Of a stretch of 64,000 bases of DNA, positions 12,639-40,130 are shown piece by piece. Source of the stretch: Crocinitomicaceae bacterium (lineage in GTDB: Bacteria; Bacteroidota; Bacteroidia; Flavobacteriales_G; Salibacteraceae); assembly GCA_002713215.1 (NCBI GenBank), contig PAVO01000053.1:1-64000 (forward strand), in the 5' to 3' direction. Position numbers and translations under genes: made by a program. The notes beneath the pieces were generated by a model that saw nothing but the letters and a program-made list of their open reading frames with translations, made no database searches and had not been told where the DNA came from. How positions within the stretch are numbered: the first letter of the stretch is position 1; the number at the start of each line of letters is the position of its first letter.

Positions 12639-12685
12639 AATAAATTGTCTTTTAAAAGTTTGGCAATATTGCCGGAACAAATATA

Positions 12686-13239: not shown

Positions 13240-13310
13240 ATTGTTTAATTCTAAATTTTAGTTACGAAATTATTGTGAGCAGCAATAGCCGGGTTTCACC
13301 AAAAGGCCAA

Positions 13311-15247: not shown

Positions 15248-15284
15248 TATGATTAAACCTTGTTTTATGAGAGCTTGTTTTTTG

Positions 15285-15857
15285 TTACCGCAAGTTGATT
15301 TTTAATATTTCTCTATACAATTCAACTCTTCCTTTTTGTTCATCGTATCGATACGAAATAAAAACCATAAATATTGGCATTTTGACATTAGCCATTTTTA
15401 GTTTTTGCTTTTTATTTACGTCATATAATGTTTTAATTGTCCGAGTGCATTTAATTCGTCCATTTTTCTTTTCGGTAAGGTTAAACCTGTTTTCTTCTTC
15501 GTCGTCATAATACCACGCACTTGGCGCAGAATGATTTAACAATATATTTAGTTCAGAATTCTTCATTCCTTCAGCCATTCCACTCTGCTTGAAACCTTTT
15601 AATTCTGTGATTTCTTTATTATTAATAGCCTGGCTGTAAGTAGTGGAGTCAAAAGTTGCACTAATCAATAAGCTAGTTGGCTTACTGAAAGAGAAAACAA
15701 TATCAAATTTCTGTGATTTTATGTTTACAGTATGGTTGTTGACTTCAACCTTTTTATTTTTTTGAAAAACCTCAACCGTAAATTCATTGGAATTTTGACC
15801 AAGAATTAAATTCCCAGTTAGAAAAATAACACTAAACAGTAAAAATAACTTCTTCAT
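15285..15857 (-). CDS. Hypothetical secreted protein
   Basis: A 190-residue protein with a signal peptide (LFLLFSVIFLTGNLILGQ, cleavage after LGQ). The mature part is rich in beta strands and lysine and has no cysteine cluster or catalytic motif. I recognise no family. It lies 37 bp upstream of the DUF6544-like gene on the same strand, suggesting a two-gene unit acting in the envelope. Confidence 0.6.
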   Translation of the reverse strand: MKKLFLLFSVIFLTGNLILGQNSNEFTVEVFQKNKKVEVNNHTVNIKSQKFDIVFSFSKPTSLLISATFDSTTYSQAINNKEITELKGFKQSGMAEGMKNSELNILLNHSAPSAWYYDDEEENRFNLTEKKNGRIKCTRTIKTLYDVNKKQKLKMANVKMPIFMVFISYRYDEQKGRVELYREILKINLR

Positions 15858-16008
15858 ATTCTTGTATCATTTAATTTGTATTGGTGCCCTTTACTACCTG
15901 GTTCGGTAGATGCTTTTTTATTCTCGGTTTCGTTTGATATACATGAGGACATGAATCCAACAACTTGAAATAGAATCAATACTTGGAAACACAATCTCGT
16001 ATGCATTT

Positions 16009-16737
16009 TTATATTGTGTTAGTGGGCTTTTTTATTTTTTCTAAGCCAATCCATTCATGTCCAATATCTCTCATCAACAGGGCATTGTCAAATTTAACCG
16101 ACCCTTTTGGAAAAATCTTTTCGTTTTCGAAAAAACTGGATTGGACATTCTTTACATCTAAAAGAGATACTTTCCAATTGTATGCTTTGAGTTCTAACCC
16201 CTCAAACTCATTTTTATCTGGGGAGTAACCAACCGAGCCATTTTCGAAAAATTCAGAAACACAATCGATATTTTCGAACACGCTTTCTTCATTCCATTTG
16301 TTTGTCTCTTTTGCTTCAATGGACAATGAGGTTTTATCCTCACTAATAAAAGCTACCTTATAGTTCCCATCAGATTCTTCAACGGAAAACTCAGCAAGAT
16401 GGTGAACACCAGGAAAAATGGCACCTCCAGCAATTGCGTTTAATTTCGATGACGTATCTCTTCGCGGAATATAAACCCCTTCTTTTAATTCACCGTTTTC
16501 AAGCCATTCCACAGCAATTCTATGAGCCCCGTTTTCCGATGATATTCCAATGTGTTTAGGAAGCCCTTTTGGTCTGATTTCTTTTAGTCGAATTAAACAA
16601 ATTCCTGCAATTCCTTTTCCATTAACCAATTTCGGTTTGAATGGCTCAGGCAAATAACTTTCCAAGATCTTTTTATCAACCTGATAATTGATGAGAATTC
16701 TTCTGTCTATTATTCCTTTTATCCTAGGTATTTTCAT
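16009..16737 (-). CDS. DUF2071-family (YqjF-like) protein
   Basis: A 242-residue soluble protein. The DUF2071 pattern is visible: RRILINYQVDKKILESYLPEPFKPKLVNGKG at the start, then GIAGICLIRLKEIRP, SSENGAHRIAVEW and GVYIPRRDTSS. The family is distantly related to acetoacetate decarboxylase folds but its function is not established. It is a lone minus-strand gene in the accessory region, followed upstream by a partial attC-like half-site. Confidence 0.75.
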   Translation of the reverse strand: MKIPRIKGIIDRRILINYQVDKKILESYLPEPFKPKLVNGKGIAGICLIRLKEIRPKGLPKHIGISSENGAHRIAVEWLENGELKEGVYIPRRDTSSKLNAIAGGAIFPGVHHLAEFSVEESDGNYKVAFISEDKTSLSIEAKETNKWNEESVFENIDCVSEFFENGSVGYSPDKNEFEGLELKAYNWKVSLLDVKNVQSSFFENEKIFPKGSVKFDNALLMRDIGHEWIGLEKIKKPTNTI

Positions 16738-16777
16738 TCTTCTGAAATCGGGTGTGGTTTCATTGTTTTTCTACCGA

Positions 16778-16850
16778 TTCAAATTTACACCAGACTTGTT
16801 TACTTTTCAGCTCTAATGAGGTAGAGTTCCCACAAGGTTACTGTTAGCTA
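16778..16850. repeat. Partial attC-like site (relic half)
   Basis: This contains TTCAAATTTACACC followed about 50 bp later by ACTGTTAGCTATG. Both match the right half of the type B attC-like sites seen at 32.7-36.4 kb. The left half is not recognisable. I read it as a decayed recombination site beside the gene 16860..17165. Confidence 0.4.
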
Positions 16851-16859
16851 TGATCTTTA

Positions 16860-17165
16860 CTAAGGGTTAACAATTGACTTGATTGTTTCAACTAGAATTT
16901 TTAAAGCCCCATCTATATTGTTTATATAATTTACTTCCACCACTTTTTTTCCATTCAATTCTATGAAATAGATGAAGTAAAAATCTCTCCAATCTTGTGC
17001 TGATATTTTTATTTGATTCTTTCCATTCGAGTATATGGCATGAGCAGTGAGGTCTTCTTTTTCATCATGCGGAATATCCTTATTGTCGAAAGTCTTGTTG
17101 TATCCATTAGCTTCAAGAATTGACTCTGATAGTTTTTGTGTTTTTTCAAGAAAGAACTGCGCCAT
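16860..17165 (-). CDS. Hypothetical small protein
   Basis: A 101-residue soluble protein starting at the ATG at 17163-17165. It has an N-terminal helix, a central beta region (HAIYSNGKNQIKISAQDWRDFYFIYFIELNGKKV) and a C-terminal helix. No family recognised. Its flanks hold degenerate attC-like motifs, so it may be an old cassette gene. Confidence 0.55.
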   Translation of the reverse strand: MAQFFLEKTQKLSESILEANGYNKTFDNKDIPHDEKEDLTAHAIYSNGKNQIKISAQDWRDFYFIYFIELNGKKVVEVNYINNIDGALKILVETIKSIVNP

Positions 17166-17240
17166 ATAATTGCTTTTAACGTTCCACTAAGGAACGATTT
17201 TGTTAGTTATGCCTATGCTATTTAGCCGTGCTTGTTTAAT

Positions 17241-17621
17241 CTATTCGTTCGATTGCACCAGAGGTTTAAACCCTCCATAGACCATTCTACTGGCATCAAA
17301 AATCAATTTTTCGGGTTTGATCAATGGCGTGACTAATTCAGTCATTCGTGGATCCATAGGAACTTTTTGGTTGGCTAAATCCCGGATCTCCTTTGAAGGA
17401 AAAACAACCCAACCAAATACAACTTCCTCTTCTTCTTTAGCATCTATGGTTTCGGTAAAAGATTTAGTGCCTTCCAAAGTCAAATCATCACCAACAAATT
17501 CGAAATAAGCAATTGCTCCATACTCCTTCCAAATTTCAGCTACTTTTTCAGCCACTTTTTTGTATTGGTTCAAATAAATCCGAGGAACTGGAAGAACGAA
17601 TCCGTCAATGTAGTTTTCCAT
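17241..17621 (-). CDS. DUF1428-family (YbaA-like) protein
   Basis: A 126-residue protein from the ATG at 17621; the frame extends upstream only into attC-like sequence. The DUF1428 pattern YIDGFVLPVPRIYLNQYKKVA, then WKEYGAIAYFEFVGDD and VVFGWVVFPSKEIRD, with a late DPRM and FDASRMVYGGF, is clear. The fold is a dimeric alpha-beta barrel and the function is unknown. Such small single genes are typical of integron cassettes. Confidence 0.8.
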   Translation of the reverse strand: MENYIDGFVLPVPRIYLNQYKKVAEKVAEIWKEYGAIAYFEFVGDDLTLEGTKSFTETIDAKEEEEVVFGWVVFPSKEIRDLANQKVPMDPRMTELVTPLIKPEKLIFDASRMVYGGFKPLVQSNE

Positions 17622-17655
17622 GCTTTTATCTTTTGGGTTTAAGTACTTGTTTCTT

Positions 17656-17703
17656 TGTTTCAAATCTACAACTGTCAGCTTTTGCTTGTTTGCTGTTAGC
17701 TAG
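17656..17703. repeat. Partial attC-like site (right half)
   Basis: The bases TTTCAAATCTACAAC at 17658, then GCTGTTAGC at 17692-17700, match the right half of the sites at 34.9 and 36.4 kb. The TAA stop of the GNAT gene lies inside the terminal GTTAGC, read GCTAAC on the minus strand, as in two other cassettes here. The left half appears lost. Confidence 0.5.
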
Positions 17704-18184
17704 TCGTATTTAGTTTTATTTCTTTTTCCATGATCACTGTATTGTGACCCTTATATTTCACCCTTTCTATAGATTTCCAACCTGATTTTCTATATAGTGA
17801 TTCGGCTGTGAATGTATACAAGTAGATTTTGTCCAGTTTACAGGTTCTTGCATTCAATTCAATTTGTTCGAGCAAAGCTTTTCCAATTCCCTGATTTCGA
17901 TATTCTTTGTCTGTATATAACAAAGCTACCCATGGTCCGAATTTCACAAACTCAGGATATACCTTTAATAGGTTAACATTATCAGACAGCCCGCCAGTGG
18001 CTACTATTTTACCACTTTTTCTAACAACTAATTGAAAATAAACTCCTTCGTATTGGCTATTTGAAAGCCTGTCAACTGTTTGTTTAATCGGAGTATTCCA
18101 CTCTTTTTGGTACCAATCCGCAATTTTCAGGATACTATCCTCATCGGAGGAATCTATCTTATCAATCTGTAACTCTTGTTCCAT
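17696..18184 (-). CDS. GNAT acetyltransferase
   Basis: A 162-residue GNAT. The acetyl-CoA binding loop is YRNQGIGKALLEQIE preceded by the strand VALLYTDKE, with the C-terminal KIYLYTFTAESLYRKSGWKSIER. The substrate is unknown. Its stop codon lies in the core of an attC-like half-site, so it was probably acquired as a cassette. The REP/MITE-like copy 2 lies immediately upstream. Confidence 0.8.
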   Translation of the reverse strand: MEQELQIDKIDSSDEDSILKIADWYQKEWNTPIKQTVDRLSNSQYEGVYFQLVVRKSGKIVATGGLSDNVNLLKVYPEFVKFGPWVALLYTDKEYRNQGIGKALLEQIELNARTCKLDKIYLYTFTAESLYRKSGWKSIERVKYKGHNTVIMEKEIKLNTTS

Positions 18185-18206
18185 GTTAAATTATGCCATA
18201 TTGCAT

Positions 18207-18325
18207 AATAATGTGGGAATAGTCGTCATTCCTTGCTTGACAAGGAATCTAGTCTTATTTCTAGATTCCTGCTTTCGCAGGAATGACGTAACTTTTATAT
18301 GGTAGCTTGGTTAACCCACATTATT
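18207..18325. repeat. REP/MITE-like palindromic repeat, copy 2
   Basis: Ends AATAATGTGGG and CCCACATTATT are a perfect 11 bp inverted repeat. Inner arms GTCATTCC/GGAATGAC and AGGAATCTAG/CTAGATTCCT make nested stems. The outer and middle arms are shared with 12785-12882; the innermost differs. It is noncoding and probably mobilised in trans. Confidence 0.7.
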
Positions 18326-18386
18326 TTACAAGACTCCGTTTAATTACCCATAACACATAGGAGGCAAAAACTTTAAAGGTTTATAA

Positions 18387-18629
18387 TTATAAACTTAAAA
18401 CAAAAGCAAATACCCATCCGACGATTATAAATAGAATTAGAAAAGCGAATAACAGAAACGTCCAAAACAAAAGTTTGATTAATACTCCTTTGGGTTTAAT
18501 CAATGATTTATAAAGTCCATCTTTAGTTATGATCTTATTAAACGCGAATAATATAATCGAGACAACGATTACAATTGGAATTGACAATACTTTATAAAAT
18601 CCAATTATATCTCCCGAAAGAATAATCAT
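18387..18629 (-). CDS. Small membrane protein
   Basis: An 80-residue protein with two hydrophobic segments (about 10-28 and 48-76) separated by a lysine-rich loop. No family recognised. Located between the REP-like copy and another membrane protein gene. Confidence 0.5.
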   Translation of the reverse strand: MIILSGDIIGFYKVLSIPIVIVVSIILFAFNKIITKDGLYKSLIKPKGVLIKLLFWTFLLFAFLILFIIVGWVFAFVLSL

Positions 18630-18679
18630 GTATTTTCAATGTACGCTAGTGTCCTGTTGCTAAATTAGGAATCGCATCA

Positions 18680-19192
18680 CTAATTTTTAGCCTGACTATC
18701 TGCTTCCAACAATTGCTCATGATAAGCTTTAATTCTTTCATTGGCATTGCTATCAACTATTAAAATAACGACCATCATAGCAATAACGGTAATGCTAATC
18801 GCACGCCAGGTTGGTGTGTTAACAAAAACAATGAGTAGGGCAGCAGCTAATATGATGAACGGGATCACCTTGAAAACTATGGTCTTGTATTCTCCCATTG
18901 ATTTTTCGGTACGAGTTATTTCCGATTTTACAAAGGCGGGAGCATCGCTATTGTATGCCTCTGCAAAACTCGTAACCCTCGACTTATTGGCGATAAATAT
19001 TCCTACTCCAATAGTTAACAGTAAAATACCGCATACCAGGGTTGGATAAATATATGCTTTGGCCATATCGGTTTTTCCTAATTGCCAAAACCCAATAGTT
19101 GCCAGTATAAAAGCAACTCCAAATAGAATAAAAAATGATGAGGAAAAAACTTCGGCTTTTGCCCAATCAGTGGCTGTTTTTAGTATATCCAT
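18680..19192 (-). CDS. Hypothetical inner-membrane protein
   Basis: A 170-residue protein with four predicted membrane segments: about 18-36, 50-68, 107-125 and 130-147, with a soluble loop from 70 to 100 and a charged C-terminal helix. No catalytic motif is visible and no named family is recognised. It is bounded on its 5' side by the attC-like palindrome at 19235-19313. Confidence 0.6.
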   Translation of the reverse strand: MDILKTATDWAKAEVFSSSFFILFGVAFILATIGFWQLGKTDMAKAYIYPTLVCGILLLTIGVGIFIANKSRVTSFAEAYNSDAPAFVKSEITRTEKSMGEYKTIVFKVIPFIILAAALLIVFVNTPTWRAISITVIAMMVVILIVDSNANERIKAYHEQLLEADSQAKN

Positions 19193-19234
19193 TGTTTAAT
19201 TTTTAAAAAGTTTTTGTCATATTTCTACACAACG

Positions 19235-19313
19235 GCTAACGATTTTGTACCAGGCAAAGTAAGGCACACTTCAATATGATTGCGTGCCACTTTGCTTGGT
19301 GTAAGTTAGCAAC
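19235..19313. repeat. attC-like site, short type
   Basis: The left half begins GCTAACGATTTTGTACCAGG and the right half ends CTTTGCTTGGTGTAAGTTAGC. Stems GGCAAAGT...GGCAC and GTGCC-ACTTTGC pair with unpaired bases, as in integron attC sites. It separates the DinB-like gene from the membrane protein 18680..19192. Confidence 0.65.
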
Positions 19314-19341
19314 ATTAATATTCCCAGGGAAAACTAGTGAA

Positions 19342-19863
19342 TTATTTGTCCAATGGTAAATATCTTTCCCTGATTATATTGAAATGATGTATTTGATGGG
19401 CTGTGATAGTCAATCCCATTGTATAGAGAGGCATTTCATATTCAAAGAACACACAATTTGTATCGAGAATTTTTTGATTGAAAGAATTAAACAAGACTAT
19501 AGTCGATTGACGTAAAATTTTAAGTTCATCTACTAGTTGTTCAATGGTTCGTTCGTTAGCATTCGAATGGTAAGCCATTATTTCCTGGTCCAACGCATCC
19601 GGAATATTCCCTTCTTTCCGGGCAAAAACAATGGCCCGATAGCACCAAATTCGTTCCCAATCAATGAGATGCTGCAATATTTTATGAATGGTCCATTTAT
19701 CTTTTTCATAAGTTTTTAAGCCAATTCGGTTCAATTGAGCTATGTCTAATTCGTTAATTCGATGTAGACTTAGTTGTAATGCCTCATTAAGTTCTGTGTC
19801 TCCGTTCAATTCCAGAACGTACTCTAAAAATTCAGGGTTCTTTTTATTTTCTTGATTTTTCAT
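19342..19863 (-). CDS. DinB-like protein
   Basis: A 173-residue protein from the ATG at 19863. It has the DinB-like four-helix arrangement with metal-binding histidines spaced across the protein: HKILQHLIDWER near 60-72, then AHQIHHFNIIRERYL near the C-terminus. DinB-family proteins are putative metal-dependent thiol or nucleophile transferases. Cassette gene, single, with an attC-like site on its 3' side. Confidence 0.75.
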   Translation of the reverse strand: MKNQENKKNPEFLEYVLELNGDTELNEALQLSLHRINELDIAQLNRIGLKTYEKDKWTIHKILQHLIDWERIWCYRAIVFARKEGNIPDALDQEIMAYHSNANERTIEQLVDELKILRQSTIVLFNSFNQKILDTNCVFFEYEMPLYTMGLTITAHQIHHFNIIRERYLPLDK

Positions 19864-20165
19864 GTCCAATTATTTTGTAATAAAATGAATTAAATATTCT
19901 GTCTGATTGCAGTATATACCTTATTTCATGGTCCATCATCGTGGTTCAATAGCATGGGTTAACCATGCTGATGGATTGCAACACTATCTTCAAATGCTGT
20001 TTAAGTAATACGAATGAAATGGTAAAATGAAATCTAGTTCGGGTAGAATTACCCAAACAAAATAATTAGCCTAAAGGGGGAGTGGCTAATTACTATGCTA
20101 CTATGTATTTAAGAATCACTCTCAAAATTGGAATCATTTATACGACGTGAAAGTATGCAATTTAT
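19864..20165. other. Noncoding gap with one palindrome
   Basis: This 302-bp gap has no credible ORF. It holds GCATGGGTTAACCATGC (near 19954-19970) with flanking CCATCATC and GATGG that can extend the stem. It may be a decayed attC-like site, but no TAAC/GTTA termini are clear. Confidence 0.4.
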
Positions 20166-20945
20166 TTATTGCTTGGTGTCGTTTTTTATTTCCCTTTTGT
20201 ATTCTTCTTTGTAACCACCCTGTTCATTAAATTTACTTTCAAATTGCCGATAATTTATGTTCCCTTTAAATTCATTTGAAAAGGTACTGTCAATTTTTAG
20301 TCTAAGAGTAGTCGAATAATTTCCGTGATAAATCATTGTCGCTGAAAGTGCAATTTCATTTGGTGGGAGAATAAATGTTCCTACTCCGTTTCCACACGCA
20401 TACATCCATTTTTTTTCTATTGGTCGCCAATTTCCAGTTGAGTCTTTGGCTTCGGTTATTAGTGGTACAAAGCTTCCGTAAGCGATGGTAATTGTGTCGT
20501 CTTCCATGTTTTCAATTAGAACAGGGTATGCTTCAAAGAAAGGTTCATCCCAATTGACGTGAATGTCATCATTCTTAACTCTCTGTGTTGTATCAATGGT
20601 GATTGAGATTTTTGCCTCATGCCACGATATATGATTATGCAGAGCCATCCAATTAATGTAGTATGGATACATTTTATGTTCGGTCAGTATTTTGCTATAT
20701 GCAGTTGTGTCACTCGGGTCAAACTTGTTAGCAGCTGGTGGAGGAGGAGGGGCAATCGGGTAATATTTTAGCCTGTAGTCAGGGTAGATTGTGTCTTTCC
20801 ATTTTCCTATGTACAATAATTCATGGTTAGCAGTGGAAAGCCAGGCAGCTTTCCTTTTCGAGGTCTTAAAGTTAAATGTATCAATGATTACAGGAAATTT
20901 TAGTTCTTCCTTCTGAACAGAAATTGGTTTTTCGTTCCTTTCCAT
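20166..20945 (-). CDS. Hypothetical protein, probable lipoprotein with unclear start
   Basis: From the ATG at 20945 the protein has 259 residues, with beta strands and proline clusters (APPPPPAAN). Reading the frame upstream gives a hydrophobic stretch ending AILISC just before this ATG, which is a good lipobox, yet no ATG, GTG or TTG opens it after the preceding stop at 21006. Either a rare start (CTG at 21005, or ATA/ATT) is used, or the start has mutated. It follows the S41 peptidase gene by about 60 bp and is probably co-transcribed. No family recognised. Confidence 0.55.
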   Translation of the reverse strand: MERNEKPISVQKEELKFPVIIDTFNFKTSKRKAAWLSTANHELLYIGKWKDTIYPDYRLKYYPIAPPPPPAANKFDPSDTTAYSKILTEHKMYPYYINWMALHNHISWHEAKISITIDTTQRVKNDDIHVNWDEPFFEAYPVLIENMEDDTITIAYGSFVPLITEAKDSTGNWRPIEKKWMYACGNGVGTFILPPNEIALSATMIYHGNYSTTLRLKIDSTFSNEFKGNINYRQFESKFNEQGGYKEEYKREIKNDTKQ

Positions 20946-21005
20946 CCTACAACTAATCAGAATAGCGAAAAGTCCAATAATTGATATGTTGAATAAGTGG
21001 CTCAG

Positions 21006-22379
21006 TTATTTTTTCTGTTTTAAATATTCAATTGCTTTGTTCAACACCGGGTCATTTCCATCTATATAATCGTTTAACGTTCTACGAACGATTATATCCG
21101 GTTGAATGCCATAACCTACAAATTCTCTGCCATCGGGATAGGTATCCTTTTTGGTACAAACCCTTGCTGAGCCTCCTCCCGGTAGATCAAACTGCATGGG
21201 TTGTCCGGTACTCCCAAAGGTAGGTTCTCCAATTTTTACCATGTGATCTTGATTATCAGCATATATTAGAAAGTCTTCTGCCGCAGATGCTGTGTAATGT
21301 CCGATTAACAAAACCGTTGGAACCACAATACGCTGGATCTTTTCTGAGATTGTATCTGCTTCGTACTCAAAGTCATAATAGTACTTGTCTCTGTACGAGA
21401 GAAAACTCTGCTTTTCCCAATTATTACCTGTTGTATCCTTTGCCTCTGTCCATTCACCCCAAGCTTTGTAGGAAGGAATGTGCAGTCTGCTTCTCATTTT
21501 TATACCGTACAGGATTGTATCGTTGGTGAGGTATTTAAGTATATCCATTCCAATAAATGTATTACCACCACCGTTGTTTCTCAGGTCAATGACCAACGAT
21601 TTTGCTTTGTATAACTCGGGCAATTTTTCAATGAATAATGTATCAATTTTAGGGTCGCTGAACGAATTAAGGGAAACATATGCAATGTTTTTGCCAACCC
21701 ATTTAAAATCCAGGAGTGTTGGGCTTTGTTCAAAAGGTGGATAAACTTCTTTTTCCGTTGTCTTTGTGTGAGTAAGAGTCAAGGCTTTTATTTTACCATT
21801 GGGAAGTTTCAACTCAACGTCATATTTTTTTCCTGATGGAGCTCTGAAGAGGTTTCTAACAGCCCAGTCGTCAAGGGCATGATCTGTAGAAGATGAAATG
21901 TAGGGCTTCACATATTGGTCCAGGTAGGTTGCAGTGTTTAGCCCGTTTACTTTAGTAATTTCAGTGCCAATCGGGATTTCGTCTTTTTTACTCAGGTTGG
22001 TTCGTGTCACTATCGCTTTTCCTTCAATGTTGCTCAAGAAAAGTCTGTATTCTCCGAAATTGGTATTTAGGAGAGAATTCCATATTGTATCAGGCTCATA
22101 AACGTTGGTGTGTCCATCTTTAAGCATTGCACAAAATTTTTGAAGCAAACGGTAGTATTCATAATCATCCCTGGTTTCCTGCACTTCAGTAATTAGCCTC
22201 TTGTATTCTTCATTCCAACTATCTCTGTCTATTTTGTCGAGGTAAATAAAATTGTAATTGACTTCTTGCCAAAATTTTGATAGGCCATATACTTTTTCTG
22301 TCTTGGTTAAGGTGTTCGGCATTTGCGCCAATAATTCATTAATAAAAAGTACCAGCGATAATAAAAGCGCTATTCTCAT
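21006..22379 (-). CDS. S41-family (tail-specific) serine peptidase
   Basis: A 457-residue protein from the ATG at 22379, which gives a signal peptide (IALLLSLVLFINELLAQ); the frame extends to 22436 without reason. The S41 core is visible: LVIDLRNNGGGNTFIGMDIL, then VLLIGHYTASAAEDFLIYADN with the nucleophile Ser in TASAAEDF, and GEPTFGSTGQPMQFDLPGGGSARVCTKKD. A PDZ-like region lies at about 130-220. It acts in the periplasm. It heads a two-gene unit with 20166..20945. Confidence 0.85.
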   Translation of the reverse strand: MRIALLLSLVLFINELLAQMPNTLTKTEKVYGLSKFWQEVNYNFIYLDKIDRDSWNEEYKRLITEVQETRDDYEYYRLLQKFCAMLKDGHTNVYEPDTIWNSLLNTNFGEYRLFLSNIEGKAIVTRTNLSKKDEIPIGTEITKVNGLNTATYLDQYVKPYISSSTDHALDDWAVRNLFRAPSGKKYDVELKLPNGKIKALTLTHTKTTEKEVYPPFEQSPTLLDFKWVGKNIAYVSLNSFSDPKIDTLFIEKLPELYKAKSLVIDLRNNGGGNTFIGMDILKYLTNDTILYGIKMRSRLHIPSYKAWGEWTEAKDTTGNNWEKQSFLSYRDKYYYDFEYEADTISEKIQRIVVPTVLLIGHYTASAAEDFLIYADNQDHMVKIGEPTFGSTGQPMQFDLPGGGSARVCTKKDTYPDGREFVGYGIQPDIIVRRTLNDYIDGNDPVLNKAIEYLKQKK

Positions 22380-22569
22380 AGTTTTAGTTTTAAAACTGAC
22401 CACAACAATCCTGTTTTTATTTGCATTGTTGTACATCTTCTATTTTGTTATTCCATTTTGAGTTTTGCAGGAAGGAGCGTAAAGACAATACCAAAATTGC
22501 TAAAGCACTTAAGTTCCGACTTTTGTTAAGTTATCAAATTTACGCCATCGCTAAGATTACCGGAAATGC

Positions 22570-22604
22570 TATTTACTGTTGCTTAAATGCCGTTTACTGA
22601 AGTT
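22570..22604. repeat. Dispersed repeat, copy 1 (partner at 51434-51468)
   Basis: A 35-bp stretch beginning TATTTACTG and ending TTTACTGAA-TT is shared, with 5 differences by eye, with 51434-51468. It lies just 3' of the membrane gene 22608..23156. Upstream, a degenerate attC-like motif TCAAATTTACGCC occurs at 22534. Confidence 0.45.
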
Positions 22605-22607
22605 GCC

Positions 22608-23156
22608 TTATTGTTTTTCAGGCTTCAGTATAAATCGGGATACAATGAAACACGTGACGAGCCAGCCAATTATTAAGTTCGCTCCCACTCCTATGGCATA
22701 AGTAGCTGGTAAGGCCCACCAATTCAGTAACTGTCCATAGGTTGCAACCCAGGTGATTAAGCCAACTATACCTACAAACAACATTCGTGTTTGTATGTTG
22801 TGATTTTTGGTCAACAACAGCAATACGACAAGTAGAACACCAACGAAAAACTGGGTGATTATTTCTCCTACAAAGTAGCTGGTATAATCCGTTCTTAAGG
22901 GTTGGGTTACAATCCAGGAAAATGTGGCATTTGTAGTGTATGTACTTATTTTATGATTGAAGGTTGAATCAAAATCATTAGTGGTTAGTGCGTTGGGCTG
23001 CAGCTTAATGAGGTTGGAGGGCTCATTAGCAATGTCTCCCGATTGTACTGTAATTTTTTGAGTTGTTGGGATTCCCCAGGGAAGCATTTGAGTAATCCCA
23101 CTCCATAGAAAAAGAAGCACCGTGAATACAAGTGAAGCCAATAGATATTTTTTCAT
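22608..23156 (-). CDS. Hypothetical membrane protein
   Basis: A 182-residue protein with an N-terminal membrane segment (about 5-25), a soluble periplasmic loop (about 30-85) and three C-terminal segments (about 90-178). The upstream ArsR gene ends at 23153, so the two overlap by ATGA. It forms a three-gene unit SRPBCC-ArsR-membrane protein, an arrangement common in Bacteroidota. Function unknown. Confidence 0.65.
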   Translation of the reverse strand: MKKYLLASLVFTVLLFLWSGITQMLPWGIPTTQKITVQSGDIANEPSNLIKLQPNALTTNDFDSTFNHKISTYTTNATFSWIVTQPLRTDYTSYFVGEIITQFFVGVLLVVLLLLTKNHNIQTRMLFVGIVGLITWVATYGQLLNWWALPATYAIGVGANLIIGWLVTCFIVSRFILKPEKQ

Positions 23157-23473
23157 TTTTTGTTTTCTTTAGCGAGATAAGCTTCTAAACCATTGAGTTT
23201 TTTCTGCCAAAACTTTTCCACTCTGGTAAGGTAATCTCCCACTTCTTTCAATGCTTCTAATTGAACAACGCAGTTTCGTTGTCTGCCATCTGCACGGTCG
23301 GGCTCAATATTAAGAAGGTTGGCATTTTGCAATACCTTCACATGCTTTGCTATTGCTGGTCTTGACATATTGAAATTCTCAGCTATTTGGCCAATGCTAC
23401 TTTGTTCTTCAACAAGCATTAGTAATATTTCCCGTCTTGTTGGGTCTGCTATGGCTTTAAATACATCACCCAT
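23153..23473 (-). CDS. ArsR-family regulator
   Basis: A 106-residue winged-helix protein from the ATG at 23473 (MGDVFKAIADPTRREILLML). The recognition region SIGQIAENFNMSRPAIAKHVKVLQNANLL is typical of the ArsR subgroup paired with SRPBCC/AHSA1 proteins. There is no metal-binding CxC motif. It overlaps the SRPBCC gene on one side and the membrane protein gene on the other, so the three are one transcript. Confidence 0.85.
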   Translation of the reverse strand: MGDVFKAIADPTRREILLMLVEEQSSIGQIAENFNMSRPAIAKHVKVLQNANLLNIEPDRADGRQRNCVVQLEALKEVGDYLTRVEKFWQKKLNGLEAYLAKENKK

Positions 23474-23888
23474 TTTTCTCGAGATAATTTTGTAAAAGAG
23501 TTGGAAGTATTTTGGTTTTCCAACCATTGGATAAGATTTTCTGTACGATAATCCTGTTCAGAAGGCCTTCAAACCCGCTGTGCTCAAAATAGAGTATTGT
23601 ATTACTTCCTGATTTTTTGAGCCTAAAGCTAACCTTGGTTTGTTTTAACGAACCACCGCTCCAACAGAAGGATAGCAATTCGTTTTCAATAACCTCCAAC
23701 ACTTCGCAGTCTATGATTCCGTTAAACCCCGGAAAAGATTTGGTTTTAAACTGAAATTTATGGCCAACTATGGGTTCAATGTCACAGGGCATTAACCACT
23801 CGCTCATGGCGTTTTTATCGCTTAGGGCTTTCCATACTTCGGCAATTGGAAAGTTGTATTCAATTTTAAACTTAATGGTGTTTTTCAT
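23466..23888 (-). CDS. SRPBCC (AHSA1-like) domain protein
   Basis: A 140-residue protein from the ATG at 23888 (MKNTIKFKIEYNFPIAEVWKALSDKNAMSEWL). The START/Bet v1-like pattern includes WLMPCDIEP, LLSFCWSGG and LYFEHSGFEG. These proteins bind small hydrophobic ligands or assist chaperones. Its end overlaps the ArsR start. First gene of the three-gene cassette. Confidence 0.8.
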   Translation of the reverse strand: MKNTIKFKIEYNFPIAEVWKALSDKNAMSEWLMPCDIEPIVGHKFQFKTKSFPGFNGIIDCEVLEVIENELLSFCWSGGSLKQTKVSFRLKKSGSNTILYFEHSGFEGLLNRIIVQKILSNGWKTKILPTLLQNYLEKNG

Positions 23889-24039
23889 ATTATATAAAAC
23901 CTTTTGGTTTCGCAAAAATATGAAACCTTCTGGTTTTATACTTAGAACTAGGGCATTTTTAGAGAATGATATTTTTAGTTGATGGATAAAGTTTGAGCTA
24001 GAATTTCGTTACTGTAAAGTATGAAGCTGTTATGAATTT

Positions 24040-24110
24040 TTCGTCCTTTCAAATTTACACTATCGCTAGTACCTGGCTGGCCGGACGGGCAGGTTACATT
24101 GTGGCAAATG
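24040..24110. repeat. Degenerate attC-like right half
   Basis: It contains CCTTTCAAATTTACACTATCGC at 24045-24066 and ends TTGTGGCAAA (24099-24108), which partly complements TTTGCTAAC at 25235-25243 on the other side of the gene 24113..25228. The left half is not clear. Confidence 0.4.
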
Positions 24111-24112
24111 TT

Positions 24113-25228
24113 TCATTTCCTTCTTTCCTTAAAAGTGTAAACCGCGTACCAATAATTTACTAATTCCCCGTCCTCTGTCTTTGTAGTATTTAACCAACGC
24201 CCTTGTTCGTCAAACTGCCTGGTTATTTTAGTTGCCGAGATATGATTATAAATTAAACCCCAATAGAGATATACAGTCTTAACTTCTTTAATACCACCCA
24301 TATAGTTTTCCAGGTATTCAAATACGGTTTTCGTTCTGAGTTGGGATTTCATTGGTCTGAATTGCGACGTATCGCAATACTTAAATGATTGAGTGATTCT
24401 GTCTAATGAATCGTATTGATGTTCCCAATGAAAAACAAACTCGACCATGTCATTGCGGAAGCTTTTATCATAAATAAGCTTCCCCATGGAGTCATACCTC
24501 TTTACGGATTTTACATGTTTGGTACCACTGGCGTCAATTGAAATAAGCCTGGTAGTTTTTTTATATTCATTGTATTCAGTTTCAGTTCCTCGAGTAAAAA
24601 CACCCCTTTCATAGTAGGATTCAAGCTTTTTATGTAGTGTAGTATCCTGGTAAGTGTATTTGGCTTCATAAACTTTCTCTTTTCCGCTCCCTTTGCCCGA
24701 ATAATGGATTTCAGATATCTTCTTGCCTTCGCTGTCCATTAGAGAAACGTATGTAGAAGTGCGGGTGCTGTCTGTAATCCAACCTACATATACTGTGCTG
24801 TCCTTAAAATAGGTATGGGTGCTACGAAAAAGAACTCTATTCTTTGTGTCAATCCCTTTTCTGGATACTTGTCTGTTTAAAGCATCATATTTTAGCGTTA
24901 TAACATAATTTAGAGCACTATCATCATTCAATACCGTTGTTCGTATATTGTTTCCTTTTTGATCATACTGAAAAAAACTCCAGGCATACAAAGTGCCACT
25001 TAGATTATAGTCCTTTTCCTCCAGCAAGCGCCCGTTGTCATCAAAGCGTTCAAAAAAAGTAAGTTGAGGAATCGAAATTTCATTTCTTGTTGGTGTCAAT
25101 TTATACTTTGATTTTGTTACCACCAACTGAACTATACTATCATTGTCTAAATAGATTCCATTTACAACTTGGCCTAAAGCGGTTAACCATGTACAGGTTA
25201 AAAATAGTATGGCGTATAGTTTACCCAA
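24113..25228 (-). CDS. Secreted YD/RHS-like repeat protein
   Basis: A 371-residue protein with a signal peptide (LYAILFLTCTWLTALGQ). The frame opens at a TTG just after the attC-like boundary GTTAGCAAAC, and no ATG fits. The mature part consists of short beta-strand repeats such as FDDNGRLLEEKDY, YDALNRQVSRKG, YDSMGKLIYDKS and YDSLDRITQSFKY, the pattern of YD/RHS-type repeats. It is smaller than toxin-bearing RHS proteins and has no visible toxin domain. Cassette gene. Confidence 0.65.
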   Translation of the reverse strand: MGKLYAILFLTCTWLTALGQVVNGIYLDNDSIVQLVVTKSKYKLTPTRNEISIPQLTFFERFDDNGRLLEEKDYNLSGTLYAWSFFQYDQKGNNIRTTVLNDDSALNYVITLKYDALNRQVSRKGIDTKNRVLFRSTHTYFKDSTVYVGWITDSTRTSTYVSLMDSEGKKISEIHYSGKGSGKEKVYEAKYTYQDTTLHKKLESYYERGVFTRGTETEYNEYKKTTRLISIDASGTKHVKSVKRYDSMGKLIYDKSFRNDMVEFVFHWEHQYDSLDRITQSFKYCDTSQFRPMKSQLRTKTVFEYLENYMGGIKEVKTVYLYWGLIYNHISATKITRQFDEQGRWLNTTKTEDGELVNYWYAVYTFKERRK

Positions 25229-25234
25229 GTTATG

Positions 25235-25390
25235 TTTGCTAACGCCCCACAGCCATGAGTGATAGGCCTTTTGTTGTAAACTCTTCGGTTCTCGGGTTTG
25301 TGTTCTTAAAATTCATCCGTTTCAAATTTACGCAACTCAGACTACTGTGCCTACCGGCAGGCAGGTTTCTTATTTGGCAGATGTTAGGCA
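25235..25390. repeat. attC-like site, type B
   Basis: The left end is TTTGCTAACGCCCCACAGCC, matching the left ends at 32.75, 34.09 and 36.23 kb. The middle has CGTTTCAAATTTACGCAAC and the right end is GTTAGGCATTGG. The stop codon TAA of the pseudogene 25384..25758 sits in the right core site (GCCTAAC on the minus strand). Confidence 0.65.
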
Positions 25391-25758
25391 TTGGCGTTAA
25401 TTCGTTCCTGATCTTTTTTCCAAAGGCTTACCTTTTCAAAAATTCGGTTAACAATATCAGAATCATCTTCTTTTGTAAAATCATCCCAATGACAGGTCGG
25501 AGCGAACCAAATCCAAATAAGATTCAAGTCAGGGAAATCTTGTTTCTTAATATTATCAATTTCGTTCTTTAGTTTATCGGTAAATTCTTCTGCAGAGAGC
25601 ATTTCACCTGAGTAGCCATCAGAGTATTTTGAAACGATTTTTAGCGCGTCGTTTAGGTCGTCTATCAGTCCAGTAATATCCCAAGATCTCTAATATTCCT
25701 CTTTTGTGGAAGGAGTTTTCTTTTTTCGTCTGAATATCTGACTGAGCAGGGTTTTCAT
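25384..25758 (-). pseudogene. Hypothetical gene interrupted by an in-frame TAG
   Basis: From the ATG at 25758 the frame reads MKTLLSQIFRRKKKTPSTKE, then reaches TAG at codon 23 (25690-25692), and stays open in the same frame for 101 more codons to the TAA at 25384. The later part includes WDITGLIDDLNDALKIV and WIWFAPTCHWDDFTKED. One amber mutation in an otherwise intact frame is the simplest explanation; an internal restart at the ATG at 25602 would give 72 residues. No family is recognised. Confidence 0.65.
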
Positions 25759-25766: not shown

Positions 25767-25900
25767 TGCCTAATGTTGAGTATATGCTAAGTAGGCGATT
25801 GCGGGCTTCAAACTTGTCATACCGATACGATTTTGAAGCGAGCTACAACAACTGAATTTACTACTATTACTCCTATTTTGTATATACATTGTTGTACAAC
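25767..25900. repeat. attC-like site, type A
   Basis: The left half TGCCTAATGTTGAGTATATG and the right half TTTTGTATATACATTGTTGTAC form the outer stem typical of the 31.9 and 37.3 kb sites. The left core TGCCTAA complements TTAGGCA at 25384-25390, at the other end of the pseudogene cassette. Confidence 0.65.
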
Positions 25901-27750: not shown

Positions 27751-27886
27751 CTACTAACGGTTTCGTGTATGAGCAGAAGCGGATTTCAAGGCTTTCCGCC
27801 TGTCAGGCCTTAACAAAGTTAATTAAATGTACTGACCTTGAATTTATCACTTCACCCGCTATTGATTATACACATTGTCGTATGCC
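27751..27886. repeat. attC-like site, type A
   Basis: It begins CTACTAACGGTTTCGTGTAT and ends GATTATACACATTGTCGTATG, with inner stems AAGCGG/CCGCT. The right core TTGTCGTATGCC complements the left end GGCATACAAC of the next site (30135) with one mismatch, so the four-gene metal module between them is one cassette. Confidence 0.7.
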
Positions 27887-30134: not shown

Positions 30135-30204
30135 GGCATACAACGGCTGGAGTAAGATGTCGTGGCTGACGTCGGGAAGCTATGCATTTTACTCATTGTT
30201 ATCG
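30135..30204. repeat. attC-like site, short type
   Basis: It begins GGCATACAACGGCTGGAGTA and ends GCATTTTACTCATTGTTATCG; GAGTAA and TTACTC pair. The left end GGCATACAAC complements the right end of 27751-27886, and the right end GTTATCG complements CGATAAC at 31877. It therefore fits both neighbouring cassettes. Confidence 0.75.
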
Positions 30205-31876: not shown

Positions 31877-32010
31877 CGATAACGGTTTTGTATATGAAAA
31901 GTAGCGGATTTTTACGCACTAATTTTTGGTTAAATTACTGACATTAAATTTATAAAATTCATTTCGATTAAGCAACTAAACCACTATTTTTTATATACGT
32001 TGTTGTATGC
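31877..32010. repeat. attC-like site, type A
   Basis: It begins CGATAACGGTTTTGTATATG and ends TTTTTTATATACGTTGTTGTA. The left half AAAAGTAGCGG pairs with the right-half sequence around CCACTATTTTTT, with mismatches. It is about 80 percent identical by eye to 37308-37443. The right core GTTGTATGC complements GCATACAAC at 32750, the other end of the cupin/ArsR cassette. Confidence 0.8.
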
Positions 32011-32749: not shown

Positions 32750-32967
32750 GCATACAACGCCCCGCAGCTAAAACAAGTGCGGGCAAAGCAATTTTGGGCG
32801 CGCTGACAAAATTTCCATTTCTATTGCTTTTTGATAGAGCGCGTGGGAACCAACCACCAAAAGCATACGAGCCGTACACTTAGGTTTAACAATATCGTTT
32901 ATTCGAGGCATATCGTTTCAAATTTACACAACTGCTAGCATTTGCCTTTTAGCCGTTGTTAGGCTAC
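32750..32967. repeat. attC-like site, type B
   Basis: The left end is GCATACAACGCCCCGCAGCT and the right end TAGCCGTTGTTAGGCTAC. It contains CGTTTCAAATTTACACAAC. The left core complements the right end of 31877-32010; the right core complements GTAGCCTAAC at 33612 in 10 of 10 bases. The HigA stop codon lies in the right core. Confidence 0.85.
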
Positions 32968-33611: not shown

Positions 33612-33698
33612 GTAGCCTAACGGTCTGGCTATGAAATGTAGCCAAAACATTTTATCGTAGCCAACCCTTGGTTATGTTTTATAGCTCTTGTTGGCAAA
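33612..33698. repeat. attC-like site, short type
   Basis: It begins GTAGCCTAACGGTCTGGC and ends GCTCTTGTTGGCAAA. The stem GGCTATGAAATGTAGCCAA pairs with TTGGTTATGTTTTATAGC with several unpaired bases. The left core GCCTAAC fits the integron R'' consensus RYYYAAC. The right core GTTGGCAAA complements TTTGTCAAC at 34090 with one mismatch. Confidence 0.8.
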
Positions 33699-34089: not shown

Positions 34090-34308
34090 TTTGTCAACGC
34101 CCCACGGCTAAGGCAAGTGCGGGGTAAATGCTTTTGGGTGCGATGGCCAAACATTCATTCCTATTGCGCTTCTTGTGTTGCGCGTGGGAACCAAAACACT
34201 TGCTGACTATTGTACTCACTTCGGGTCTCGGGTTCATGTTTATTAGATTTCTATCGTTTCAAATTTACAACAAGCCGCCCTATTTGCTTTGTGGCTGCTG
34301 TTATACTC
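34090..34308. repeat. attC-like site, type B
   Basis: The left end is TTTGTCAACGCCCCACGGCT; the right end is TGGCTGCTGTTATACTC. It contains CGTTTCAAATTTACAACAA. The right core GTTATACTC is the exact complement of GAGTATAAC at 34840, so the gene between them is a cassette with 9 bp matching ends. Confidence 0.85.
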
Positions 34309-34839: not shown

Positions 34840-34976
34840 GAGTATAACGTTCTGTGGCCATGAGAAGTAGGCTTTTCGAGGCACAAACTTCGGTACTAGG
34901 GATTGGGTTATTAATTTTCATTCGTTTCAAATTTACAACAGACCTGCCTATTTCTTATTTGGCCGCTGTTATATGC
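34840..34976. repeat. attC-like site, type B
   Basis: The left end GAGTATAACGTTCTGTGGCC and the right end TTATTTGGCCGCTGTTATATG pair; GGCCATGAGAAGTAGGC matches GCCTATTTCTTATTTGGCC with few unpaired bases. The right core GTTATATGC is the exact complement of GCATATAAC at 36233, so two genes share the next cassette. Confidence 0.85.
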
Positions 34977-36232: not shown

Positions 36233-36450
36233 GCATATAACGCCCCGTGGCCATGAGAAGTAGGCTAGAAGCAGTAAGTGGTGCGTAGGCCAAATATTCA
36301 TTCCTATTGCGTTTTGCTTGTCGTGCGCAGGAACCAACACACTTACTGCCCGTGGCAGACTCTTCGGAACTCGGGTATGGGTTATTAAATTTCAATTGTT
36401 TCAAATTTAGCACAAACTGCCTATTTCTTATGTGGCCACTGTTAGTATGC
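36233..36450. repeat. attC-like site, type B
   Basis: The left end is GCATATAACGCCCCGTGGCC and the right end TGTGGCCACTGTTAGTATGC. GTGGCCATGAGAAGTAGGC pairs with GCCTATTTCTTATGTGGCCAC, leaving single unpaired bases. A second inner stem is GCAGTAAGTG/CACTTACTGC. The right core GTTAGTATGC complements GCATACTAAC at 37308 in 10 of 10 bases. Confidence 0.9.
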
Positions 36451-37307: not shown

Positions 37308-37443
37308 GCATACTAACGGTCTTGTATATGAAAAGTAGCGGATTTTTTGCACGAACTTTTCGGTTAAACACAGACCTTAAATTTATAAAATTCATTTCGA
37401 TTTAGCACCTAAACCGCTATTTTTTATATACGTTGTTACCCAC
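37308..37443. repeat. attC-like site, type A
   Basis: It begins GCATACTAACGGTCTTGTAT and ends TTTATATACGTTGTTACCCAC. GTATATGAAAAGTAGCGG pairs with CCGCTATTTTTTATATAC with two unpaired bases, a close likeness to an integron attC. The right core GTTACCCAC is the exact complement of GTGGGTAAC at 38893, beside the recombinase gene. Confidence 0.9.
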
Positions 37444-37562
37444 TGGCTTTATTCCTTTCAGCTTGGTTTTCAGCGTTGGCAAAGACATACTTTTTTGTAA
37501 TTTTTGGCTTGTGTGTTGGCTGAAGCGAATTACAAATGTGTATGGCTTTTAGCGTTGGCTTT

Positions 37563-37769
37563 TTAACAACAACTTTTATTTTCTTGAATTGGTGGACAAG
37601 CTACTGTACCATAAGAACAATAAACACAACAATCTCCCTCTTTAGGTTTCAAAACCGTTTTGCAATTCTCACATTCGTAGAAAAATTGACAAGCGTTTGT
37701 CGGCATATCTTCTACTTTTTTATGTCCGCAGTTTGGACAAGTAATTTCAGATTTTAATATAGTTTCCAT
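37563..37769 (-). CDS. GDCCVxC-domain protein
   Basis: A 68-residue cysteine-rich protein. It has CPNCGHKK, ECENCKTVLKPKEGDCCVYC and a terminal CPP...SCC. The GDCCVxC family is commonly linked to mercury resistance operons. Its start overlaps the MerTP stop by one base (TAATG). Zinc or mercury binding is likely. Last gene of the Hg cassette. Confidence 0.8.
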   Translation of the reverse strand: METILKSEITCPNCGHKKVEDMPTNACQFFYECENCKTVLKPKEGDCCVYCSYGTVACPPIQENKSCC

Positions 37770-38368
37770 TAATTTTCTTTTTTGTCCGTTACTTTATAGC
37801 CTGTTGAATTAATTGCTTTCTCAATTTCCGTTTCATTGGTTTTGGTTTTGTCAAATTCAACGATTGCATTTCCATTTTCGTAAGACGCTTTTGAATTTAC
37901 AATTCCGTTGAGTTTATTTACTTCGTGATTTACGTGTTCTTCGCAACTCGCACAAGTCATTCCGCTGATTTTAAATTCCGTTGTTTTAATGTCCGATTTG
38001 TCAACTACGATAACTTGCTTTTCTGTATTTGGGTAAAAAATTCCTGAATAGTATGGGAAAGCCAACATTACAATTGCAAATACAGTTACAATTCCTAAAA
38101 ATTTCTTTGATTTTATAAATTTTGGTTTTTCGTCCGTCTCACAATCACAGTCTATTTCTTTTTGAGGTTTTAGTTTTTGATACCAAGCAAAGCCAAGAAC
38201 TAAAATTGTCAGTCCAATTAAATAAGGTCTAAAAGGTTCAATCCAAGAAAATGTTGAAGCAATTCCGCTTGTTCCTGCGATTAGAGCCAAAACAGGTGTA
38301 ATACAACATAATGAAGCTGTAATTGCAGTTAACAAACCTGCACCAATTAATTTGTTTTCGCTTTTCAT
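37769..38368 (-). CDS. merTP: Mercuric transport protein MerTP (fused MerT-MerP)
   Basis: A 199-residue protein. The MerT part has three membrane segments with the vicinal cysteines C21-C22 in SLCCITPVLALIAG and a cytoplasmic CDCETD. A C-terminal HMA domain carries ISGMTCASCEEHVN. MerT moves Hg(II) inward and the fused MerP-like domain captures it. The adjacent ArsR-type gene overlaps it by ATGA. No MerA is in the cassette. Confidence 0.9.
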   Translation of the reverse strand: MKSENKLIGAGLLTAITASLCCITPVLALIAGTSGIASTFSWIEPFRPYLIGLTILVLGFAWYQKLKPQKEIDCDCETDEKPKFIKSKKFLGIVTVFAIVMLAFPYYSGIFYPNTEKQVIVVDKSDIKTTEFKISGMTCASCEEHVNHEVNKLNGIVNSKASYENGNAIVEFDKTKTNETEIEKAINSTGYKVTDKKEN

Positions 38369-38739
38369 ATCGTTTCTAAAATTTTGTTTTTATCAAGTAT
38401 CTCAAAGAATGGATTTAGCATTTTTTCGTATTCAGCCGTGAGTGAGTAAAAAATCGTTTGGGCTTCTCTATCGGTTTCTAATAGATTACGGTCTTTCATT
38501 TTCCTCAAATGTTGAGAGATTGCAGAAATGTTCATTCCAAGAATATCGCTTAAATCACAAACGCAAAGTCTTTTTTCCTCAAAGAGTAGGTAAAGTATTT
38601 TCAGTCGAACGCTATTTCCGACTAATGAAAGTCCGTTCGCCAAATAGTCGAACGATTCGTTTAATTCCGAAACTGTGTCTTTGCAACGATTTATTTGTTC
38701 AATATCGGCTTTTTGTCTTATGCAAGAATTATTTTCCAT
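38365..38739 (-). CDS. ArsR-family metal-responsive regulator
   Basis: A 124-residue winged helix with the metal-sensing ArsR signature CVCDLSDILGMNISAISQHLRKMKDRNLL; the cysteines of RLCVCDL can bind a thiophilic metal. Starts at the ATG at 38739. It precedes MerTP and GDCCVxC, so it probably represses the Hg operon until metal binds. First gene of the cassette next to the recombinase. Confidence 0.9.
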   Translation of the reverse strand: MENNSCIRQKADIEQINRCKDTVSELNESFDYLANGLSLVGNSVRLKILYLLFEEKRLCVCDLSDILGMNISAISQHLRKMKDRNLLETDREAQTIFYSLTAEYEKMLNPFFEILDKNKILETI

Positions 38740-38892
38740 AAAACAAAGTTACGGTTATTTCTTATTTAAGCAAATACTAAAATACAATATTCTCAAGCGT
38801 TGGGAAATTTTAGCTCTTTTGGTTTTCAGAGCGTTGGATTTGTGTGTCGGCAAAAAATGAAAGTGCTAAAATGTGAGGCTGGTTTTCAGCTT

Positions 38893-38955
38893 GTGGGTAA
38901 CTTGTATATATCGGAATAAAATGTTCCGATAACCATCCAAATAAGGTGGATAAAC
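38893..38955. other. Candidate attI-like primary site
   Basis: It begins GTGGGTAAC, complementary to the right core of the first attC-like site (37435-37443), which fixes the outer end of cassette 1. It also contains ATCGGAA/TTCCGAT (38910-38930) and GTGGAT/ATCC segments. It lies between the first cassette and the recombinase gene, where an integron carries attI. No further attC-like site lies beyond it. Confidence 0.5.
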
Positions 38956-38981: not shown

Positions 38982-40130
38982 CTACTTTTCATTCCTTTTT
39001 AAAAAGTCAAATGGAGATGGAAGTGTCTCCAGTTTATGGTTACTAACATACGTATAAATTTCTGTGGTTTTGCTACTTTTATGCCCCAAAAGCTCTTGTA
39101 TGTACCTTAAATCAACCCCACCTTCCAATAAATGAGTAGCGTAGCTATGCCTGAGCATATGACTGCTGATATGCCTTTTGATACCTGCTTTGGTAGCTGC
39201 TCTTTTCAGTATTTGATTTACCGAACGATCCGAATATTTACCTCCAGCTTGGCCCTCAAATAAATAATCCTCAGGACGATATGCCTTCCAATATTCGCGA
39301 AGCATTTTTATTATCGAATCACTTACTTTAATTCTTCTATCCACACTTCCCTTGCTATTCAATATCAGTACTGTATTTCGATCTTTATTAAAATGCTCGG
39401 CCTTTAGTGCAAGCAACTCACTCACCCGTAATCCACAACCGTATTGCAAGCTAATCATGGTTAGATGTTTTAAATTCTTGATTTGATCTAAAATGGAATT
39501 TACTTCCTCCAACGACAGCACCTTGGGGAGTTGTCTCCTCCTTTTGGGCAGATCGATAAGGTCGATATCTAATGCTCTTTTTTTCCTTTTGGCGTAAAAG
39601 AGTCTTATGGCTCCGATCATTAGTCGTAAATAAGAAGCAGAATATCCACGACCCACATTTAGCTCATTAATAAAGGAGTTTATATCTTCATTCGTGATTT
39701 CGCCTGGCGACTTGTGAGTAAAGTATCCAAAAAATACCTCAATCATATTTTTATAAGTTGCCCTTGTGTTAGTTGCATATCCCTTAGCCCCTAGAATATC
39801 TGCAAAGGCTGCAATTTCTTTTTTTACTTCGGTGCTAAAGTTCTTAATGGGTTGTTCTCTTTTTATAGGTGGTGTTTTTACCGCTTTTATGTTGGTAGAA
39901 AACCCCTTGATGGAAGAATAATTAACCCAAGCCGTTCCTTTAAAAGCCTCAAACCAACTATTCAAATTGAACAAGTTCGCATCTACATACCATTTCTTGT
40001 TTGTATTGCTCCAACGAGCTTTTAATTGTTTACAAAGGTTTATTATCTCTTTATTGTAATTGAATTCAATAAAAATAACAGGTACTTTTCGATGCTCGCC
40101 TTTCGTGAGTGTGATGGTTTTTGTTAGCAT
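38982..40130 (-). CDS. Tyrosine recombinase (XerC/D-type) with HARP-like N-terminus
   Basis: A 382-residue recombinase. Residues about 15-75 (FIEFNYNKEIINLCKQLKA, WSNTNKKWYVDANLFNL) resemble a HARP-type domain. A SAM-like core-binding domain follows (about 100-190) and then the catalytic domain with R235 (GLRVSE), the pair H324/R327 (HMLRH), H350 (LLGHKSS) and nucleophile Y359 (EIYTYVS). It ends SPFDFL, reminiscent of IntI and Xer tails. The insertion that defines IntI between the R and HxxR boxes (ALxRKYP...HH) is missing: YLFEGQAGGKYSDRSVNQI comes instead. It is transcribed toward the cassettes, unlike most integrons. Confidence 0.9.
   Translation of the reverse strand: MLTKTITLTKGEHRKVPVIFIEFNYNKEIINLCKQLKARWSNTNKKWYVDANLFNLNSWFEAFKGTAWVNYSSIKGFSTNIKAVKTPPIKREQPIKNFSTEVKKEIAAFADILGAKGYATNTRATYKNMIEVFFGYFTHKSPGEITNEDINSFINELNVGRGYSASYLRLMIGAIRLFYAKRKKRALDIDLIDLPKRRRQLPKVLSLEEVNSILDQIKNLKHLTMISLQYGCGLRVSELLALKAEHFNKDRNTVLILNSKGSVDRRIKVSDSIIKMLREYWKAYRPEDYLFEGQAGGKYSDRSVNQILKRAATKAGIKRHISSHMLRHSYATHLLEGGVDLRYIQELLGHKSSKTTEIYTYVSNHKLETLPSPFDFLKRNEK

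Follow-up and report, generated by a model that had tools for sequence, protein, structure and literature searches.

Introduction

Bacteroidia are considered nearly free of integrons (PMC9024848). The described systems closest to the locus reported here are the IntI integrons, the integrons of Treponema, and the XerA or archaeal Xer recombinases. In Treponema, a recombinase codirectional with its cassettes is known; the enzyme there is a genuine IntI, which distinguishes these integrons from the present locus (PMC3607928). XerA and archaeal Xer (NF040815; 4A8E, 5HXY) are the best matches of our recombinase core by sequence, NCBIfam model and structure (Z 22), but they have neither a cassette array nor an N-terminal domain of the kind described below. 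A survey of tyrosine recombinases reported that the IntI insertion is not fully conserved in an 'integron-like' subgroup, yet called it essential for integron function (PMC8138268); its relevant passages give no arrays, attI or attC for the insertion-less members. Possibly, the family studied here belongs to this subgroup of simple tyrosine recombinases. Integron surveys identify IntI by its insertion, and a system lacking it should therefore escape them, however conspicuous its arrays. In the open literature searched, with preprints and most subscription papers outside its scope, we found no description of a XerA-like integron system.

The locus lies in a stretch of 64,000 nucleotides from a Crocinitomicaceae bacterium (contig PAVO01000053.1, positions 1 to 64,000), called the window throughout; all coordinates without a further label refer to it. 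Like IntI integrons, it has a recombinase beside attI and a promoter-poor cassette array that includes a toxin-antitoxin cassette, together with attC hairpins, AAC/GTT boxes, an unpaired spacer, G^TT boundaries and R''/R' complementarity within the cassette. Unlike them, it lacks the IntI additional domain, carries an extra HARP/DRD-like N-terminal domain and has attI on the 3' instead of the 5' side of the recombinase gene; moreover, its main attC class forms a symmetric stem with a conserved A.C mismatch and without clear extra-helical bases. The additional domain, the defining feature of the integrase, was tested for and is absent, and we therefore do not regard the locus as an IntI integron. 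Very likely, it is a functional analogue of an integron that uses a non-IntI, XerA-like enzyme with a HARP/DRD-type N-terminal domain and an attI site 3' of the recombinase; the reaction as such is an inference without biochemical data.

Results

A XerA-like recombinase without the IntI insertion

The recombinase gene (38982..40130, minus strand) is an intact open reading frame with an ATG start and encodes a XerA-like tyrosine recombinase of 382 amino acids with an N-terminal extension. Pfam assigns a SAM-like core-binding domain to residues 109-187 and the catalytic Phage_integrase domain, which has no IntI insertion, to residues 204-363 (39042..39521, minus strand). In an alignment of 33 family members, R235, K260, H324, R327 and H350 were invariant; Y359 was invariant in this alignment as well and conserved to at least 90% in a second set of sequences. 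The spacing from the catalytic R to the HxxR box is 89 in the window protein and 88-90 in the family (one member has 81) as compared to 131 in the IntI that could be measured. Upon alignment with IntI4 (2A3V), residues 180 to 247 of IntI4 (67) corresponded to residues 280 to 304 of the query (24). Thus, two claims of the preliminary description held: the catalytic set R235, H324/R327, H350 and Y359 is present and conserved across the family, and an IntI insertion between R and HxxR is absent. These protein features are shown directly.

The best curated match of the window protein was NF040815 (XerA/integron integrase) with 222 bits against a cut-off of 220, and the NCBIfam integron integrase model TIGR02249 was not reached (177 bits, cut-off 265). 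In a structural comparison of the core, the archaeal Xer 4A8E ranked first with a Z of 22.1; IntI4 scored 20.4. The features of the recombinase recur in dozens of genomes, and near-full-length relatives were found in roughly 65-70 of 199 related genomes, as counted from search rows. Many contigs carrying relatives end within 400 nt on the 3' side of the recombinase, as would be expected if repeats come next.

The window recombinase is the sole Phage_integrase match on its contig, so that its description as the only recombinase beside the array held for the contig. Its transcription toward the cassettes was also confirmed; the reversal relative to typical integrons, claimed along with it, is not diagnostic by itself. 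The position of attC was examined, as a control, at IntI loci from the phylum, and 3' arrays were also present at some of them; orientation alone is therefore not diagnostic. Genuine IntI genes of the phylum that are oriented as in Treponema, with attC-like sites 3' of the gene, are found at loci L082-L086 and L097.

The N-terminal domain

Residues 1-75 (39906..40130, minus strand) are predicted to form a separate alpha/beta domain (mean pLDDT 84.5) with a fold like HARP or the XPB damage-recognition domain (DRD), as judged from the structure model and the Pfam matches of relatives; F23, W40 and S41 are conserved. The closest folds to the model belonged to the XPB damage-recognition domain (Z 6.3), the HARP domain of SMARCAL1 being a weaker match (Z 3.6, rmsd 2.0 over 48 residues), and a Foldseek search with the domain gave no match at E < 0.001. 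Taken alone, the window protein remained under the gathering score of Pfam HARP (PF07443; E 0.081, 12.9 versus 25 bits); 4 of 25 relatives matched this family, the best with an E of 6.8e-7. Hence, the claimed extension of about 75 residues held, and its likeness to HARP rests on the fold and on these four relatives, the window protein itself being below the cut-off.

XPB DRD and HARP are structure-specific DNA-binding domains that act at junctions of single- and double-stranded DNA. This makes it attractive to assume that the N-terminal domain reads folded attC hairpins, and we infer that it may help to do so in place of the IntI insertion. A few members without the domain are nested inside the recombinase family, so it may be dispensable.

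An attI-like site 3' of the recombinase

An attI-like site (38899..38932, minus strand) consists of the palindrome TTATCGGAACATTTTATTCCGATA at 38909-38932 followed by TATACAA directly before the crossover GTT (38899-38901), which lies 80 nt beyond the stop codon. Equivalents exist in more than 30 relatives: with loci oriented on the recombinase, the site was located 30-133 nt 3' of the stop codon in about 36 of them, with a consensus of short palindromes and a core near TATAAACNA directly before GTT. Nearly all relatives have the site within this distance of the recombinase gene. Position and conservation of the site are thus shown. Unrelated coding sequence usually starts directly after it. 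Across many genomes, the first cassette adjoins the site, and its leader matches its own attC; the cassettes are thereby linked to the site next to the recombinase gene. An accidental arrangement of neighbouring genes was considered and ruled out, since the first cassette fits at attI in many genomes.

The window's genome also harbors a decayed second copy of the recombinase (L010, G000:C6:30885-31091), 77% identical over its end. It is still followed by the attI-like site TATAAATAAGTTAGC.

The cassette array of the window

At least nine codirectional cassettes follow 3' of the attI-like site, all features of the array being on the minus strand. Cassette 1 (37318..38900) encodes an ArsR regulator, a MerTP mercury transporter and a small GDCCVxC-type protein, and homologous cassettes occur in four other arrays; its attC 1 (123 nt, 37315..37437) was found at E 5.8e-12 by a covariance model built without window sequences. 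It is followed by attC 2 (205 nt, 36239..36443), which closes cassette 2 with a MORN-repeat protein and shows a 2-nt bulge by eye, attC 3 (125 nt, 34846..34970; covariance model E 1.4e-7) and attC 4 (207 nt, 34096..34302). A DUF4440/SnoaL-like cassette is closed by attC 5 (74 nt, 33619..33692), which the model matched weakly, a HigB toxin/HTH antitoxin cassette by attC 6 (205 nt, 32756..32960; E 1.6e-4), and an HTH plus cupin cassette by attC 7 (124 nt, 31881..32004; E 9.8e-10). Next come attC 8 (59 nt, 30142..30200) and attC 9 (124 nt, 27756..27879; E 8.1e-12), the latter with GAC as its 5' box. A further attC at 25772..25893 (E 7.9e-9) belongs to an older part of the array, and the distal, apparently older region (8104..25700) contains mostly codirectional genes and degenerate attC remnants. 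Fresh cassettes thus lie near the recombinase, and those at the opposite end of the array are degenerate.

Palindromic GTCATTCCTGC...GCAGGAATGAC repeats, REP- or MITE-like, are present in the old part of the array at 18190-18290 and 12770-12830. Away from the recombinase, the window's genome has attC-like sites also at G000:C39:14528, C5:53024, C5:62512 and C20:81364.

Structure and covariation of attC

The gaps between the codirectional genes contain hairpins with AAC at the start and GTT at the end. In integrons, the nucleotides 3' of GTT are already part of the following cassette; in the free circle, they pair with that cassette's own bases 5' of AAC. A leader should therefore complement the attC of its own cassette and not the adjoining one. 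Among 68 sites, 20 showed a 7/7 match to their own leader, as compared to 0.6% of random pairs; the own leader fitted better than the next one in 44 cases and worse in 13 (p 2e-6). All nine window cassettes matched their own leader at 5-7 of 7 positions (mean 6.1/7; next leader 1.6/7). Such complementarity makes sense only for a circularised cassette, and it is shown by the sequences.

Covariation was analyzed with 17 sites of the 124-nt attC class, none of them from the window. In a 22-pair structure, 92% of cells were paired, each of the 19 stem pairs varied on both sides, and the covariation score reached 0.668 versus 0.136 for shuffled and at most 0.112 for slid versions. The sites had first been chosen by complementarity, which inflates the paired fraction; this choice does not account for the covariation seen in comparison with slid versions, and structure and covariation of attC can be regarded as shown. 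The stem of this main class is symmetric and canonical extra-helical bases were not seen; in a wider attC set, position 18 was a constant A.C mismatch and the spacer was asymmetric (1 nt versus 5 nt). No Rfam family matched the attC-like sites. That attC is used as folded single-stranded DNA remains an inference.

An initial hairpin scan anchored on AAC/GTT was too noisy; it was replaced by a stem-only score and later by the covariance model. Without window sequences, this model recovered six window sites at E < 1e-3 with borders identical to those set by hand. In G069, G087, G017, G116 and G050, clusters of matches were located on the strand of the family recombinase and downstream of it. Sites were detected in 20 of 20 genomes picked mostly for having the recombinase (G074 among them has no clear relative), in 10 of 20 genomes without a clear relative, and in none of 8 genomes outside Bacteroidota. 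The occurrence of attC without a recombinase, seen here in about every second genome that has no clear family recombinase, is likewise known from IntI CALINs.

Two functional criteria of an integron are thereby met, namely an attI site adjoining the integrase gene and attC hairpins conserved in structure and variable in sequence.

Transfer of cassettes between arrays

A third criterion, cassettes as discrete mobile units bounded at G^TT, is met as well. L044 and L047, which belong to two different families and whose recombinases share only 51% identity, both contain a mercury cassette of the type of window cassette 1 (1,436 bp; ArsR, MerTP and a small protein), with 97.9% identity between the two copies. 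The agreement breaks off precisely at GTT at either end; in the 400-nt flanks, identity is 55% and 49.5%, which corresponds to the random level (51.5%). Furthermore, homologous cassettes of L042 and L047 both start at GTT, one after attI and the other after attC. Whole cassettes have thus been transferred between unrelated arrays with boundaries at GTT, which is shown by these comparisons.

Phylogeny and occurrence of IntI

Phylogeny had been named in the preliminary description as a check. In a careful tree, IntI formed a clade with 100/100 support and the window protein was placed outside; the XerA-like part of the tree contains both IntI and the window family. Forcing the two together cost 29 log-likelihood units, but the AU test did not reject this topology (p 0.136); a common origin of the two attC-using lineages is therefore not excluded. 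The window's genome contains no IntI above the cut-off. IntI was present in 84 of 296 genomes of the phylum, nearly all outside the window's class; among the same-class genomes searched, only G179 had an IntI above the cut-off.

Resistance genes and plasmids

A Chryseobacterium plasmid carries the family recombinase, attI and an attC array. On this plasmid (L112, 13121-17772), repeated cassettes without an open reading frame consist almost only of a 140-nt attC, and the array also contains a group II intron reverse transcriptase.

The resistance gene tet(X) starts at an identical GTT^ATGTGCC in three contexts (L198 6904-8237, L201 516-2029, L202 7878-9330, L203 2296-2420): in Acinetobacter, it comes after an attI-like site preceded by a truncated recombinase relative, and in Empedobacter and Sphingobacterium after two different attC sites. 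In L202 (Sphingobacterium), the attC of tet(X) matches its leader at 7/7, and blaOXA-347 is located between attC sites, also with a leader match of 7/7 (L202 2132-5795). The plasmid of Sphingobacterium faecium has the appearance of an array of the XerA-like system with multiple resistance cassettes. On IncA/IncC-type plasmids, blaVEB-3 is preceded by an attI-like site and, before that, by another truncated relative (L115 3700-3900); no attC was found after blaVEB-3 in L115. We conclude that tet(X) and blaOXA-347 are cassettes of the XerA-like system and that blaVEB-3 probably is one, too. Modules of the type xerD-tet(X3)-resolvase have been described on Acinetobacter plasmids without an integron or cassette reading, their spread being credited to ISCR2 (PMC7758954). 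In our reading, the 'xerD' of these modules is a truncated relative of the window recombinase; an attI-like site and tet(X3) come after it.

Discussion

An integron-like system is real and widespread, recurring across Bacteroidia. The preliminary description had proposed that a non-IntI, Xer-type enzyme has taken over attC-like recombination. This reading is strongly supported by the comparative evidence because the enzyme lacks the IntI signature and falls outside the IntI clade, attI lies 3' of the recombinase, the genome has no IntI, and cassettes move with GTT boundaries; catalysis of attI x attC recombination by the local enzyme is inferred. In the proposed mechanism, the recombinase would bind, in double-stranded form, the attI-like site that lies shortly after the 3' end of its gene. 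An incoming circular cassette would present its one attC, a long imperfect hairpin with AAC/GTT as outer boxes, folded as a single strand. Recombination at G^TT would place the cassette beside attI and in the same direction as the recombinase gene; older cassettes would be displaced outward by new insertions.

Three other explanations have to be considered. The one that survives best, although unlikely, is that the locus is a genuine IntI integron and that its integrase lost the insertion secondarily. Sister placement to IntI was not rejected (AU p 0.136), and both groups share the XerA-like region of the tree. Against this, the 100/100 clade of IntI excludes the window protein, the insertion is absent in all family members, and the best solved-structure match is an archaeal Xer and not IntI.

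Very unlikely is a CALIN, the remnant of a lost canonical IntI integron beside an unrelated recombinase. CALINs are common (PMC9024848), Bacteroidota genomes without the family also carry attC-like sites, and IntI occurs elsewhere in the phylum. However, an attI-like site with a correctly matched first cassette is found 3' of the family recombinase in genome after genome, IntI above the cut-off is confined to G179 among the same-class genomes searched, and the gradient from fresh cassettes at the recombinase end to degenerate ones at the far end also speaks against a remnant.

It is equally hard to maintain that XerC/XerD or another host tyrosine recombinase moves the cassettes, the local enzyme being a passenger or acting on attI only: the window's genome does have XerC- and XerD-like genes and several further recombinases, but attI tracks the family recombinase and not XerC/D, and the family recombinase is at the attI end of the array in every locus inspected.

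We therefore retain the functional analogue of an integron with its own XerA-like enzyme as the preferred reading. A bolder version, which in our opinion has as much against it as for it, would see a second integron lineage in Bacteroidota, in which a HARP/DRD-type, fork-DNA-binding domain on a Xer enzyme recognises folded attC; the IntI insertion would then be only one solution out of two, and the major resistance genes tet(X), blaOXA-347 and probably blaVEB would have been assembled as cassettes of this lineage before reaching Proteobacteria.

If the enzyme works as inferred, attC recombination would not require the IntI insertion, and the descent of integrons from Xer enzymes would become directly testable. 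Furthermore, tet(X) and other resistance genes of Bacteroidota origin thereby gain a mechanism of mobilisation, and the attI/attC signature can be used to locate cassettes in genomes.
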